From Candidatus Omnitrophota bacterium (GTDB lineage Bacteria > Omnitrophota > Gorgyraeia > 2-01-FULL-45-10), in contig JAUYOL010000035.1 of the NCBI GenBank assembly GCA_030695905.1, positions 1 to 40,527 on the forward strand: a stretch of 40,527 nt of DNA, read 5' to 3'. The position numbers and the translations under genes were made by a program. The notes under the pieces were generated by a model, which worked only from the letters and a program-made list of their open reading frames with translations, was not told the DNA's origin and made no database searches. Positions 26,971-40,527 of the stretch are shown piece after piece (position 1 is the first letter of the stretch; each line of letters opens with the position of its first letter).

Positions 26971-27511
26971 AAATGAAGTTGTAAAATTAGTAAAGGACAA
27001 CCCTGTAGTAGCGCTGGCCGCTGTTATTGCTATCGCGGCGTTTATCATTTACGCAATTGTATTTATACCGATGATGAATGAGATGAAGATAAAATATGTG
27101 GAATGCAGGCGCCTGGAAAATGATGTAACCAACGCGCGCAAAATAATAGATTATGCCAAGACTATGGGTAAGCCATATGGCGGCAGGATATTGATATCCG
27201 AAAAAGAAGCGGCTACCGGCATAGATGAATTTACAGAGCATGCCAAAGAGCGGGGCATAGAGTTTATCGCGGTTAAACCGCAAAATACCATATCGAAAGA
27301 GGGCATGGTATATAAAATAATGCCGATAGAATTGGAATTAGAGGCCGACGATAAGCAGTTCGTGGATTTTTTAGGGTCGATAGACGAGCTTAAGAAGGCT
27401 ATAGTTACCGTAAACAGTATGGATATAACGCCCGACGAAAGCAATAATGCGCGGCTTCTTGTAAAGATGACGATATATGTTTATTTATCGGCCAGAGAAG
27501 ATCTCTCTTAA
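26960..27511 (+). CDS. PilO/GspM-like inner membrane assembly protein
   Basis: A 183-residue bitopic protein: short cytoplasmic tail, one membrane helix (about 15-36, VALAAVIAIAAFIIYAIVF), coiled coil (about 40-70), then a ferredoxin-like periplasmic domain (GIEFIAVKPQN...IELELEADDKQFVDFLGSI) of PilO type. It overlaps the PilM-PilN gene by 11 bases. PilO-type proteins dimerise with PilN and connect the platform to the periplasmic partner, here probably the next gene product. Confidence 0.82.
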   Translation: MNVKNEVVKLVKDNPVVALAAVIAIAAFIIYAIVFIPMMNEMKIKYVECRRLENDVTNARKIIDYAKTMGKPYGGRILISEKEAATGIDEFTEHAKERGIEFIAVKPQNTISKEGMVYKIMPIELELEADDKQFVDFLGSIDELKKAIVTVNSMDITPDESNNARLLVKMTIYVYLSAREDLS

Positions 27512-27529
27512 GGCGGGCATAGGTATTAT

Positions 27530-27937
27530 ATGGACAATAAAAAAGTTATAATTCTGGTGGTGCTATCAATCTTCGCGGTTATAAGCCTCATATACGGTAT
27601 AACGGCTAAGCCAAAATCGAGGATTGCCGGGCAGGGTATAACCGCAACTAAAGGACTGATGCCGCCGCAGGACGATATCTCCGTGGAAAGACGCGCCAAG
27701 AGAAGCAAATTTACCTCATGGAAGAGGAGCCCGTTTGTAGCCACCGGCACATCCACTTCCTCGAATCTCGTTTTAAGTGGTATAATATGGAACAAAGATA
27801 GGCCCAAAGCCATGATAGGTGACCGCATAGTTACCAAGGGGTCAGTGATAGAAGGCAGCACCGTAGTGGAGATAAAACCCGGCAAAGTCATATTGAACGA
27901 TGGAACGAAGGATTTTGAACTAAAGATAGAGAAGTGA
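27530..27937 (+). CDS. PilP/GspC-like periplasmic connector
   Basis: A 135-residue protein with an N-terminal membrane helix (VIILVVLSIFAVISLIYGI), a disordered linker rich in Pro, Arg and Ser, and a small beta domain (VLSGIIWNKDRPKAMIGDRIV, VVEIKPGKVILNDGTKDFEL). This matches the homology region of GspC/PilP, which binds the outer membrane secretin. No secretin gene follows: dnaX starts 10 bases later, so the secretin must be elsewhere. Recognition is by domain pattern and gene order. Confidence 0.75.
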   Translation: MDNKKVIILVVLSIFAVISLIYGITAKPKSRIAGQGITATKGLMPPQDDISVERRAKRSKFTSWKRSPFVATGTSTSSNLVLSGIIWNKDRPKAMIGDRIVTKGSVIEGSTVVEIKPGKVILNDGTKDFELKIEK

Positions 27938-37333: not shown

Positions 37334-39103
37334 TTATCTTGTCTTGTTTTCCAGCTTTTTGAACTCTTCCCATATTTCATTGGGAAGCCGGTCGTCAAAC
37401 TGCCTTAAAAAGGTCTTTACTCCATCCAGTTCCGTTTTCCAGTCGGATAAATTTATCTCAAATAGCTTTTCCATGCGTTCTTTAGGAATATCCAAACCGC
37501 TAAGATCCATATCTTCCAATTTCGGTATAAGGCCTATTGGATTGGGTTTCGCGCCTACCCTGTTATTAACACGGTCTATCATCCATTTTAACACTCTTAT
37601 ATTTTCTCCGAACCCGGGCCATAGATATTTGCCTTCCTCATCCTGACGGAACCAGTTGACGAAGAATATCTTTGGCGGGTTATCCATCTTCTTGCCTATA
37701 TTCAGCCAATGGTTAAAATAGTCTCCCATATTGTAGCCGCAAAAAGGAAGCATGGCCATCGGATCACGTCTTAAGACACCTTCTTTTTGCGTCGTCGCGG
37801 CGGTTGTCTCCGAGCCCATGCGGGCCGCTAAGAATACGCCGTTTTGCCAATCCAAACTCTCATAGACAAGCGGTATAAGATGGGAGCGTTTTCCGCCGAA
37901 TATTATTGCCGATATCGGTACGCCTTTTGGGGTATCCACTTCCTTGGATAGCGTTGGAGCATTATACATGGATACCGTAAACCTTGAGTTAGGATGCGCC
38001 GCTTTTGTGCCTGAAGAAGCGTCCCATGGATTGCCCTGCCAATCCAGAAGATTTTTAGGCGCGTTCCCATCAATGCCTTCCCACCATGGTTCGCCTGTAT
38101 CGGTATTCAATGCCGTATTGGTAAATATGGTAGGATAAAAGTTACTGCTCTTAAGCGTCCTGATCATATTAGGATTTGTCTTCATCGAAGTCCCGGGAGC
38201 GACTCCGAAAAATCCCGCTTCCGGATTTATCGCCCAGAGCCTTCCGTCGGGCCCTACATTCATCCATGCTATATCATCACCCAGTGTCCATATTTTGTAA
38301 CCCGGCAGAGCTGATTCCATCATAGCTAAATTTGTCTTGCCACAGGCGGAGGGCAGCGCCGCCGTAACATATGTAATCTCGCCGCTTGGAGCTTGAATCC
38401 CAAGTATTACCATGTGCTCCGCCAGCCAGCCTTCCTGTAGGCCCAGCCACGAAGCTATCCTTAAAGAAAAGCACTTTTTGCCTAACAAGGCATTCCCGCC
38501 GTAGCCTGAGCCTATGCTCCATACGAAATGTTCGAGAGGGAAGTGCACAATAAGTCTTTTGTCGGGGTCGAGATTTCCTATTGAATGAAGGCCTCTGACG
38601 AAGTCGCTTTTATTTCCTATCCTCGCTATCGCAGCCTTTCCCATTCTCGTCATTATTCTCATGCTTATAGCGACATAAGAAGTGTCGGTAAGCTGTATAC
38701 ATGCCTTGGCGTAGGGTGAGTCGGGGTGGCCCATCATATATGGCAGTACATACATCGTCCTGCCCTTCATGCATCCTTCGGATAGCTTTCGCATTTTAGC
38801 CTTAGCTTCTTTAGGATCCATCCAATTATTATTTGGCCCGGCGGTGGCCCTGTCGGGGTAGCATACGAAAGTGAGATGCTCTGTGCGGGCAACGTCGGTA
38901 GGGTGGCTTCTATGCAAATAAGCGTTGGGCCAGCTTTTCTGATTCAATTCGGTGAATACGGGCTGACCGTTTATCTTTTCTTCCCGCATACCTATCTCAA
39001 TGAGTTTCCGGGCCTCAGCGTCAGAACCGTCACACCAATAAATCTTATCCGGCTTTGTCAGCTTTGCCTGTTCCTCAACCCATTTTTCGAGCGGTGTTGC
39101 CAT
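37334..39103 (-). CDS. pckG: Phosphoenolpyruvate carboxykinase (GTP)
   Basis: Catalyses interconversion of oxaloacetate and PEP with GTP/GDP, 589 residues, the normal length of the GTP-type enzyme. Motifs include YWCDGSDAEA at the N-terminus, HPTDVARTEHLTFV, the nucleotide-binding P-loop LPSACGKTNLAMM, AINPEAGFFGVAPGTS, and the RRDPMAMLPFCGYNMGDYF region. AGGAAG precedes the ATG. It stands alone, and with the por operon it allows PEP-pyruvate-acetyl-CoA carbon flow in either direction. A palindrome overlaps its likely promoter. Confidence 0.95.
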   Translation of the reverse strand: MATPLEKWVEEQAKLTKPDKIYWCDGSDAEARKLIEIGMREEKINGQPVFTELNQKSWPNAYLHRSHPTDVARTEHLTFVCYPDRATAGPNNNWMDPKEAKAKMRKLSEGCMKGRTMYVLPYMMGHPDSPYAKACIQLTDTSYVAISMRIMTRMGKAAIARIGNKSDFVRGLHSIGNLDPDKRLIVHFPLEHFVWSIGSGYGGNALLGKKCFSLRIASWLGLQEGWLAEHMVILGIQAPSGEITYVTAALPSACGKTNLAMMESALPGYKIWTLGDDIAWMNVGPDGRLWAINPEAGFFGVAPGTSMKTNPNMIRTLKSSNFYPTIFTNTALNTDTGEPWWEGIDGNAPKNLLDWQGNPWDASSGTKAAHPNSRFTVSMYNAPTLSKEVDTPKGVPISAIIFGGKRSHLIPLVYESLDWQNGVFLAARMGSETTAATTQKEGVLRRDPMAMLPFCGYNMGDYFNHWLNIGKKMDNPPKIFFVNWFRQDEEGKYLWPGFGENIRVLKWMIDRVNNRVGAKPNPIGLIPKLEDMDLSGLDIPKERMEKLFEINLSDWKTELDGVKTFLRQFDDRLPNEIWEEFKKLENKTR

Positions 39104-39141
39104 ATTCTTCCTAATGTTTTATGTGTAAGTCCGTATTTGGC

Positions 39142-39156
39142 GTGGTATTATACCAC
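39142..39156 (-). promoter_or_regulatory. Extended -10 inside palindrome, pckG control region
   Basis: GTGGTA (39142-39147) and TACCAC (39151-39156) form a perfect inverted repeat with a 3-base centre. On the - strand this includes TGGTATAAT, an extended -10 box, 44 bases before the pckG ATG. No good -35 is visible. The symmetry over the -10 suggests an operator, though a palindromic promoter by chance is possible. Confidence 0.5.
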
Positions 39157-39189
39157 AAAAGAGGGAGTTCTCTATAAAAGTTTTCTTCC

Positions 39190-39768
39190 CTATTTTACGT
39201 AAGCCTTGATTATTTTTTGCTCTGAAATAGGCTTATCCGAGGGGCCTGTAGCCGTATTTTCTATTTTTTCTACAACATCGTAGCCTGATATCACCTTGCC
39301 GAATATGGTGTGATGCATATTCAGCCATGGTGTAGCCGCCGTTGTGATAAAGAACTGGCTGCCATTGGTATTGGGGCCTGCATTTGCCATTGCCAGAATA
39401 CCGGGTGAGTCAAAACCAACATTTTTATTAAATTCATCCGCGAAAGACTTGCCCCATACCGATGATCCGCCCATGCCTGTTCCTGTGGGATCTCCGCCCT
39501 GGATCATAAATTCCTTTATGACCCTGTGAAATATTAATCCATTGTAATATCCTTTTTCGGCCAGTTTCACGAAATTTTCACACGCTTTTGGCGCTATATC
39601 AGGCATGAGTTTAATCTCTATCTCGCCCTGGTTTGTTTCTAAAACGACTATTTTTTCATCCATCGCGAATAATCCTCCGTTAATGTTTATACCAGTCAGT
39701 AAAACGATCAAACAAGCGCTTAAAATCAGTATTTTTAGGCTCATAATAGTTTTTTCCTTTTTTGCCAT
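39190..39768 (-). CDS. Exported cyclophilin-type peptidyl-prolyl isomerase
   Basis: Folding catalyst of the periplasm, up to 192 residues. It has a signal peptide ([18 protein letters not shown]) and then the cyclophilin core: [42 protein letters not shown] with the catalytic-type Arg, [15 protein letters not shown], and [12 protein letters not shown]. An alternative ATG at 39744 has a weak AGGA site, while the one at 39768 has none, so the true start is uncertain. It is monocistronic. Confidence 0.9.
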
Positions 39769-39806
39769 TGTATCTTAAACGAAACGTGTGTGCAAGATAA
39801 AACTAT

Positions 39807-39835
39807 TTGAAAAAGCCCTGTCGATATGCTATCAT
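39807..39835 (+). promoter_or_regulatory. Likely ancestral tRNA-Asn promoter
   Basis: TTGAAA (39807-39812), a 17-base spacer and TATCAT (39830-39835) with TG one base upstream of the -10. The predicted transcript start is about 30 bases before the tRNA 5' half at 39871, as expected for a tRNA promoter. The intact tRNA at 40228 has no such promoter directly before it, so it is probably transcribed from here through the GIY-YIG gene. Confidence 0.65.
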
Positions 39836-39870
39836 CTTACCTGCAATAGTCGTTCTTTAAAATTTTTCAC

Positions 39871-39965
39871 TCCCCTGTAGCTCAGCTGGCCTCCGGCCCT
39901 ACGGGCCGCCTCCGGCTCTACAGAGCCGTAGGCTCGGAGAGTAGGCCCGGAGGGTAGAGCATGTG
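39871..39965 (+). pseudogene. tRNA-Asn 5'-half remnant interrupted by palindrome
   Basis: Bases 39871-39889 and 39955-39965 together match the first 30 bases of the intact tRNA-Asn at 40228-40257 exactly: acceptor 5' strand, D arm and the first bases of the anticodon stem. The 65 bases between them are a GC-rich palindrome in the D loop. Nothing of the anticodon loop, T arm or 3' acceptor follows, so it cannot give a tRNA. Confidence 0.9.
39890..39954. repeat. 65-base GC-rich palindromic insertion in tRNA remnant
   Basis: Two related units (CCTCCGGCCCTACGGGCCG and CCTCCGGCTCTACAGAGCCG) are followed by their approximate inverted forms (GTAGGCTCGGAG, GTAGGCCCGGAGG). Outer arms pair with one mismatch, and GGCCC/GGGCC and GGCTC/GAGCC make local hairpins. 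It is absent from the intact tRNA copy, so it came in after duplication or with it. Confidence 0.85.
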
Positions 39966-39982
39966 AAAGGTTTTCTATTAGA

Positions 39983-40222
39983 ATGTATTATGTATATGTT
40001 TTAAAAAGTGAAAAAGACGGCAAGTTATATACGGGGCATACTGATAACATAGAGAGAAGGCTATCTGAGCATAACAGTGGTAGGGTAAGATCAACAGCAG
40101 CAAGAAAACCATTTATTGTGCTGCATTTTGAAACATTTCCCACGAAATCTGAGGCGCGCTGGCAAGAACGCTGCCTCAAAACCGCGTGGGGTAAGAAGAA
40201 ACTCAAGAGCTCTTTTATATAA
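39983..40222 (+). CDS. Small GIY-YIG endonuclease domain protein
   Basis: A 79-residue single-domain GIY-YIG nuclease. Motifs are YYVYVLKSEKDGKLYTGHT (the GIY and YIG elements appear as YVY and YTG), ERRLSEHNSG with its catalytic-type Arg, a Glu in QERCLKTAWG as metal ligand, and the C-terminal KKKLKSSF. Stand-alone members of this size include both repair-like (YhbQ) and mobile forms. The tRNA remnant ends 17 bases upstream and the intact tRNA starts 5 bases after the stop, so the gene sits inside a partial tRNA duplication. Possible ribosome site AAAGG is rather far from the ATG. Confidence 0.88.
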   Translation: MYYVYVLKSEKDGKLYTGHTDNIERRLSEHNSGRVRSTAARKPFIVLHFETFPTKSEARWQERCLKTAWGKKKLKSSFI

Positions 40223-40227
40223 ATCGT

Positions 40228-40303
40228 TCCCCTGTAGCTCAGCTGGTAGAGCATGTGGCTGTTAACCACAGTGTCCTAGGTTCGAGTCCTAGCGGGGGAG
40301 CCA
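40228..40303 (+). tRNA. tRNA-Asn (anticodon GTT)
   Basis: A complete cloverleaf of 76 bases with encoded CCA. The acceptor TCCCCTG pairs with CGGGGGA, the D arm is GCTC/GAGC, the anticodon stem TGTGG/CCACA has anticodon GTT at 40261-40263, the T arm is CTAGG/CCTAG with TTCGAGT loop, and the discriminator is G. It has no nearby promoter of its own. The recombinase gene on the other strand ends inside its T arm. Confidence 0.97.
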
Positions 40304-40527
40304 ATTTGTAACATAGGCAGAACTGCTGTCTCAGTGGTTCTGCCTATTTCTTTTTCTTCGAGCAATGGGGCGGTGTATTCGAGGGTTACGTCGGGCGGGG
40401 TTATGATAATTCGCTTTACGAAGGTTCTTAAGACGGCCTTTTGCTCCATGATCGTGCCGTCCTTGAGGAGTTGAGTCAAATCCGTGGCAAATTCCTTGAG
40501 GGCTTGAAGGTCAAACGGCAAACGTGC
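40276..40527 (-). CDS. Serine recombinase, C-terminal part (5' end outside window)
   Basis: Partial gene. The open frame runs to the window edge, so the catalytic domain is outside. The visible 83 codons resemble the C-terminus of large serine (resolvase-type) recombinases: a helix (LQALKEFATDLTQLLKDGTI), then EQKAVLRTFVKRIIITPPDVTLEY. The last 9 codons (GSPARTRT and the stop) are the reverse complement of the tRNA-Asn 3' end (40276-40302). That is what is seen when an integrase gene lies next to a tRNA used as attachment site. Family assignment from the tail alone is moderately firm. Confidence 0.78.
   Translation of the reverse strand, partial: ARLPFDLQALKEFATDLTQLLKDGTIMEQKAVLRTFVKRIIITPPDVTLEYTAPLLEEKEIGRTTETAVLPMLQIGSPARTRT
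40313..40357 (+). terminator. Rho-independent terminator after tRNA-Asn, inside recombinase gene
   Basis: ATAGGCAGAAC (40313-40323) and GTTCTGCCTAT (40337-40347) make a perfect 11-base-pair stem with a 13-base loop, followed by TTCTTTTTCTT. It is a textbook terminator for the + strand tRNA transcript, 10 bases after the CCA. On the - strand the same bases encode residues near the recombinase C-terminus (IGRTTETAVLP) and no U-run follows, so it acts one way only. Confidence 0.88.

Follow-up and report, generated by a model that had tools for sequence, protein, structure and literature searches.

A small nuclease gene that lies between two copies of the beginning of a tRNA gene raises the question of whether it arrived there as part of a mobile unit, one that broke the tRNA gene and at the same time supplied what was needed to rebuild it. 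The locus considered here sits near the end of the window, the whole 40,527-nucleotide stretch that we analyzed, which is the entire 40.5-kb contig C35 of an Omnitrophota MAG (genome G000; 1.82 Mb, 97.5% complete). The answer that we reach, to which we assign a probability of roughly 0.7, is that the insert represents a mobile unit of the homing-endonuclease type, about 290 bp in length and made up of a small GIY-YIG nuclease gene and a replacement 5' part of the tRNA. The features of the locus are as follows.

37334-39103, minus strand: PEPCK gene, the synteny anchor for the tRNA-Asn locus (searched for in 26 family genomes)
39190-39768, minus strand: cyclophilin-type isomerase gene (PF00160), left neighbor of the tRNA locus
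39807-39835, plus strand: sigma-70-like promoter TTGAAA-17-TATCAT of the native tRNA-Asn (10/12 consensus positions; same in the empty-site relative G015)
39871-39889, plus strand: nucleotides 1-19 of the native tRNA-Asn, left in place (same as the start of the intact copy)
39889-39953, no strand: 65-base GC-rich palindrome in the D loop of the broken half (folds nearly end to end, about -42 kcal/mol)
39953-39965, plus strand: nucleotides 18-30 of the native tRNA-Asn (exact match with the intact copy)
39966-39970, plus strand: ribosome-binding-site-like AAAGG, right behind the tRNA fragment (from the sequence)
39983-40222, plus strand: GIY-YIG nuclease of 79 amino acids, single domain (Pfam PF01541, invariant residues, PDB relatives)
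40228-40257, plus strand: replacement copy of tRNA-Asn nucleotides 1-30 (identical to the native copy from tRNA +1 on but not before it)
40258-40303, plus strand: 3' part of tRNA-Asn, probably native (matches G015; no second copy in the assembled genome)
40228-40303, plus strand: complete tRNA-Asn(GTT) (ARAGORN; Rfam RF00005, 66.9 bits)

The initial annotation had described the first 30 bases of tRNA-Asn as present twice, interrupted at 39871-39965 and intact at 40228-40257, with 17 bases, a 240-base GIY-YIG gene, and 5 bases between the copies, and all of these coordinates and spacers proved to be exact. Its estimate of a unit of roughly 290 bases also agrees with our measurements, the insert being 357 bp long and 292 bp without the 65-bp palindrome. 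It was right that the upstream fragment is interrupted but made no mention of the palindrome that constitutes the interruption. The break in the native tRNA-Asn lies in the 5' strand of the anticodon stem. The 30-nt repeat beside the nuclease gene exceeds chance: a copy of that length of the neighboring tRNA within 360 bp gave a P value of 0.003, the floor for 300 dinucleotide shuffles, versus 0.28 for the reverse-complement control.

Between the two tRNA-Asn copies, the nuclease gene is the sole gene, and no integrase of the kind that serves tRNA-targeting integrative elements is present there. No group I intron (RF00028) was found in the window unit, nor any Rfam intron in positions 39100-40527, and the region between the fragment and the intact tRNA-Asn contains no promoter-like site scoring above 8/12. 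The assembled genome, in which the right flank of the tRNA is visible for 224 bp up to the contig end, holds no second copy of tRNA-Asn nucleotides 31 to 76, which fits replacement of the 5' half with reuse of the native 3' half. On the minus strand, an open reading frame that runs off the contig end (40276-40527) has its C terminus encoded by the 3' end of tRNA-Asn. An att-site origin by way of this reading frame was set aside because it has no Pfam match, occurs once in the genome, and is cut by the contig end.

The nuclease itself matched PF01541 with an E value of 8e-17 (61.8 bits, against a cut-off of 22.6) over residues 1 to 71 of 79. Residues Y5, Y16, G18, R26, H30, and E62, which are invariant columns across 17 sequences, are intact in it, and the catalytic Tyr, Arg, and Glu of the GIY-YIG motif, by which the superfamily is recognized, are all present. 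The gene is free-standing, lying outside any intron or intein. The protein is a bare catalytic domain, lacking the separate DNA-binding domain of the Seg and I-TevI type, and this counts against the homing-unit reading; for the same reason, we describe the nuclease as working like the Seg enzymes and not as a member of the Seg family. There was no sign of a viral unit: viral contigs gave 11 weak partial matches, and phage records reached only 36 to 44% identity.

To tell the native 5' half from the new one, we used the PEPCK gene as an anchor and found tRNA-Asn near it, on the same contig, in G015, G005, G016, G013, and G008. In G015, an intact tRNA-Asn lies at the same place, ~700 bp upstream of PEPCK, with neither a nuclease gene nor a fragment, and its 76 nt are 98.7% identical to those in the window; this is the empty locus in a relative that the initial annotation had proposed to look for. 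The G015 gene has the promoter TTGAAA-17-TATCAT, followed by CGTTCTTTAAAAATTTCAC immediately before the intact tRNA-Asn. The distance from promoter to tRNA start is 64 bp for the window fragment and 66 bp for the G015 tRNA-Asn, and the leader together with the first 19 nt of the tRNA (window 39850-39889) aligns with positions 1481-1519 of G015 locus L201 at 92.5% identity. No such resemblance to the G015 leader is seen in the DNA that precedes the intact copy at 40228. Since the promoter and leader of G015 match the DNA before the fragment only, the fragment is the native 5' half and 40228-40257 is the newcomer, just as had been proposed at the outset for an old half left behind and a new half downstream.

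Within the family, the tRNA-Asn locus thus exists in three states, namely, empty, occupied by a group I intron, or occupied by a nuclease unit. The unit is present in G000 and in G009, the latter apparently with another nuclease lineage. Group I introns (Rfam RF00028) split tRNA-Asn at nucleotides 35/36 in G001, G002, G005, G006, G012, G013, G016, G021, and G023, and the intron-split genes of G005, G013, and G016 lie near PEPCK on the same contig. Introns in the anticodon loop of tRNA-Asn were recorded at L208, L209, L210, L212 to L215, L218, and L183, and in tRNA-Tyr at L077 and L101.

A second pair of empty and occupied sites, within one genus, was found at tRNA-Glu, where G014 is occupied and G018 and G021 are empty; here, as for tRNA-Asn and G015, the comparison is at the species level. 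The genes upstream of tRNA-Glu are orthologous, those of G018 and G021 being 81% and 76% identical, respectively, to those of G014. The G014 fragment occupies the native tRNA-Glu position, and an intact tRNA-Glu follows 435 bp downstream. The G014 remnants and the native tRNA-Glu of G018 have CCCCGTGGGG in common, whereas CCCCATGGGG is found in the intact G014 copy and in G021 and G022, and so, to judge from these differences, the G014 unit seems to have brought with it a whole, slightly foreign tRNA-Glu. Also in G021, an intact tRNA-Glu and an exact copy of its nucleotides 34 to 78 lie 5.3 kb apart on the same strand (C73:22153-22197 and 27500-27577), a pattern that an integrative element at a tRNA 3' end would leave.

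To see how general this anatomy is, we fetched the 100 loci with the best GIY-YIG matches from 57 genomes that belong to the family and class of the window, and found a tRNA within 700 bp of the nuclease gene in 64 of them. All 92 tRNAs within that distance are on the same strand as the nuclease, and tRNA density is 0.684 per kb within 700 bp compared with 0.031 per kb beyond 1.5 kb, a 22-fold difference. Partial tRNA copies with a score of at least 20 numbered 30 on the same strand and none on the opposite strand near the gene, versus 6 and 1, respectively, in three times as much distant sequence. For the fragment test, these loci were combined with the window and the 27 further loci described below (128 in all), of which 36 had a tRNA within 60 bp downstream. 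These 36 come mainly from one phylum, and the small sample counts against the homing-unit reading; in 26 of them (P ≤ 0.01), a 5' fragment of the same tRNA lies in the upstream 260 bp, compared with 0 of 36 for the reverse complement and 2 of 36, both long fragments, for the 3' part. The expectation that related GIY-YIG genes would be tied to tRNA fragments was therefore borne out. The isotypes involved include Asn, Glu, Pro, Arg, Tyr, Met, Ser, Ala, and Val, and several nuclease reading frames overlap the tRNA, with their stop codons within it.

In 20 of the 21 loci measured, the start of the repeated sequence is no more than 3 nt from tRNA +1, as expected if the new half arrives with the unit and not from a staggered cut; target-site duplication by a staggered cut was rejected on this ground. 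Of the tRNA-linked loci, about half have the nuclease downstream of the tRNA, an arrangement that counts against the homing-unit reading, and only 6 of the 37 loci with a tRNA upstream of the nuclease have a 3' fragment downstream, with L161 and L166 as clear cases of 3'-end replacement. The minimal unit of one nuclease gene plus half a tRNA that had been suggested at first therefore describes the unit in the window but does not extend to all relatives, since in some of them the replacement is an entire tRNA or concerns the 3' end. The opposite proposal, of a whole tRNA in every unit, was rejected, because just 6 of the 33 loci tested have a 3' remnant behind the intact tRNA.

Nuclease lineage and tRNA isotype go together: isotype required 33 changes on the nuclease tree, whose support is limited by the short protein, versus at least 43 in 200 label shuffles. 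To look across phyla, we scanned with a four-member Asn/Arg clade, to which the window protein is 38 to 43% identical and which is not its own lineage, the 17-member alignment being too diverse to serve as a query. With the protein alone, the scan returned 33 loci, or 27 after removal of those already seen (L140 and L082 of G009 are one locus, 100% identical over 5.2 kb). Twenty-four of the 27 lie near a tRNA, intact or intron split, on the same strand, and for the remaining 3 the contig ends within about 100 bp. Among the 24, L146, L149, L157, and L160 have an intron-split tRNA-Asn, and Rfam confirmed the group I intron in the last three. The clade was found in Omnitrophota, several Patescibacteria groups, Myxococcota, Elusimicrobiota, Chloroflexota, and others (GenBank titles name Omnitrophota, Nomurabacteria, Nealsonbacteria, Falkowbacteria, Deltaproteobacteria, Elusimicrobia, and Chloroflexi), with short contigs that may be misbinned and several loci on contigs of 60 to 290 kb. 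Omnitrophota do not form one clade on the Asn/Arg-clade tree (5 changes), a split that would fit transfer. Dozens of comparable insertions, found across numerous tRNA genes and bacteria, suggest that miniature selfish DNA of this sort is widespread but has attracted little notice.

Members of this nuclease family are found in other target genes as well. At L056, L066, L090, L069, and L075, sister GIY-YIG genes flanked by 15- to 20-bp inverted repeats lie in the start codon of the next gene, a dnaE-like gene, for example, and the right repeat gives a ribosome-site-like stretch and a new GTG or ATG start. At L046 and L058, two GIY-YIG genes, from two families, are inserted in the 5' end of a type IV pilin-like gene at the GFTL motif, and each gene of the pair is accompanied by a replacement N terminus.

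Related loci, too, have palindromes similar to that of the window in their tRNA remnants, where these occupy the D loop, the anticodon, or the T loop, and palindromes of the types TTCCGCC..GGCGGA, CAGCC..GGCTG, and CCTGCC..GGCAGG are 13-fold denser within 400 bp of GIY-YIG genes (L040 to L172). Both observations would suit an account in which the palindrome is the primary invader, such repeats jumping into tRNA loops, perhaps with the aid of the nuclease, and the extra tRNA copy being a rescue. This account is highly improbable: a broken single-copy tRNA would be lethal before any rescue, only 14 of the 36 loci with a tRNA within 60 bp downstream have a matching motif in the 160 bp before the nuclease, and the tRNA fragment at L043 has no large palindrome. 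The palindrome is dispensable in the minimal unit. In the genome of the window itself, a CCTCCGG-type palindrome like that of the window abuts the start of a tRNA-Ile (L036, ~1490 to 1540; C4:102489) and is possibly the scar of another unit. Ordinary duplication, in which the nuclease would be a resident of tRNA operons and the fragments leftovers of local tRNA duplications, with no mobile unit, also has little probability. The constant shared strand of nuclease and tRNA speaks for it, as does L164, the sole case that looks like a recent local duplication, where the repeat around the nuclease (2440-2760) includes 27 nt of the tRNA leader and is exact over 44 nt in all. However, the gene is absent from orthologous tRNA loci of close relatives in which the flanks are kept, the fragments belong to the adjoining tRNA and in most cases break off in the D arm or the anticodon arm, and the same anatomy is seen on many isotypes and in distant phyla.

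A further idea is that the unit is an offshoot of group I intron homing, with the nuclease as the endonuclease partner of anticodon-loop introns (collaborative homing), encoded outside the intron, and the tRNA repair as a by-product of imprecise homing. At least nine family relatives have a group I intron in tRNA-Asn between nucleotides 35 and 36, nuclease genes lie directly upstream of intron-split tRNAs in L053, L149, L157, and L160, and the breaks in the window, L082, L076, L044, and L092 are near the intron site. We nevertheless consider this origin unlikely, since the window unit has no intron, the order of fragment, nuclease, and whole tRNA is impossible by a splicing-type insertion, and units are also present in tRNAs Glu, Pro, and Arg, where no intron was seen in most such loci.

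Several known systems resemble the homing-endonuclease-type unit in part. Integrative elements that target tRNA genes span kilobases, depend on an integrase, and in most cases restore the tRNA at its 3' end. Like the unit, such elements (ICEs, prophages, and islands) enter a tRNA gene and restore its function with sequence of their own while a fragment stays behind as a repeat, but the unit has no integrase or any other gene. Bacterial tRNA group I introns with homing endonucleases share with it the target genes, a neighboring site, and, in relatives, the same tRNA-Asn, but the intron splices itself out, whereas the unit rebuilds the gene and has no ribozyme. In sequence, the closest solved relatives of the window nuclease are UPF0213/COG2827-type proteins (1zg2 and 1ywl) and SLX1, with the catalytic domain of I-TevI also among its PDB relatives; to our knowledge, none of the UPF0213/COG2827-type proteins or SLX1 is a tRNA-gene-resident unit.

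In principle of action, the nearest parallels are found in phages and mitochondria. According to the available excerpts of two reports (PMC13096335, PMC2988022), SegB of T-even phages is a free-standing GIY-YIG homing endonuclease that cleaves within tRNA sequences and is preferentially inherited, with donor alleles usually being cut poorly (PMC13096335). As these excerpts describe them, Seg nucleases, like that of the unit, are encoded outside introns, beside tRNA genes, and are enriched near tRNAs; they differ in being larger proteins with DNA-binding modules in phage genomes, compared with 79 amino acids in bacterial chromosomes, and the excerpts describe no replacement tRNA part or native remnant. 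The mORFs of fungal mitochondria consist of an endonuclease open reading frame and a replacement gene end, with the native end left as a remnant, as in atp6 of Allomyces and atp6, atp9, cox2, and nad3 of Glomus, the atp9 case using a GIY-YIG enzyme (PMC3630166). The same three components are found in the window, where the promoter and leader match with G015 identifies the displaced native end, but mORFs affect the 3' ends of protein genes in mitochondria, whereas the unit affects tRNA genes, mostly at their 5' ends, in bacteria. In a bacterial chromosome, the unit joins the SegB principle and the mORF principle, using a single-domain enzyme and 5' halves of tRNAs. In freely accessible journal articles, we found no account of GIY-YIG units that carry tRNA halves in bacteria.

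We propose that the nuclease would cut in the anticodon or D arm of tRNA genes that belong to a particular isotype and are uninterrupted, and that repair from an occupied allele would copy the unit into the cut gene. The native promoter and 5' half would remain upstream, the promoter now driving the nuclease, and the new 5' half would join the native 3' half, restoring a whole tRNA at the end of the nuclease transcript, from which ordinary tRNA processing would free it. Loss of the unit would put an essential tRNA at risk unless removal were precise, and the host would thus retain it, while the abandoned native half would decay and then be colonized by palindromic repeats. Such a mechanism, with nuclease and tRNA made from one transcript that starts at the old promoter, would explain why the unit persists, why nuclease and tRNA share a strand, and why no good promoter precedes the new copy (best score, 8/12). 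This scheme draws on the anatomy of the locus, the distinction between native and new halves, the empty sites, the recurrence, the strand bias, and the tracking of isotype; from the same sequence comparisons, we infer that the nuclease cuts DNA and that the unit is mobile. The interpretation put forward in the initial annotation is largely supported.

Tentatively, the window unit could represent a general class of miniature bacterial mobile elements that consist of a small GIY-YIG nuclease gene and a replacement end of the target gene, with tRNA genes as their main niche and with sister lineages in start codons, where a ribosome site and start codon are restored, and in pilin 5' ends, where a new N terminus is supplied. 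If so, they would rank with the smallest known autonomous mobile elements, would be present in several phyla, and would be the source of many tRNA fragments and tRNA-adjacent palindromes. The unit offers a simple laboratory test case for how a single-domain GIY-YIG enzyme recognizes its target and spares its own copy. If our reading is correct, one short nuclease gene inhabits essential tRNA genes without splicing by bringing the missing gene end along, a strategy that would be common in Omnitrophota and present in Patescibacteria and that would provide both a concrete source of bacterial tRNA fragments and a route by which foreign versions of tRNA genes could replace native ones.
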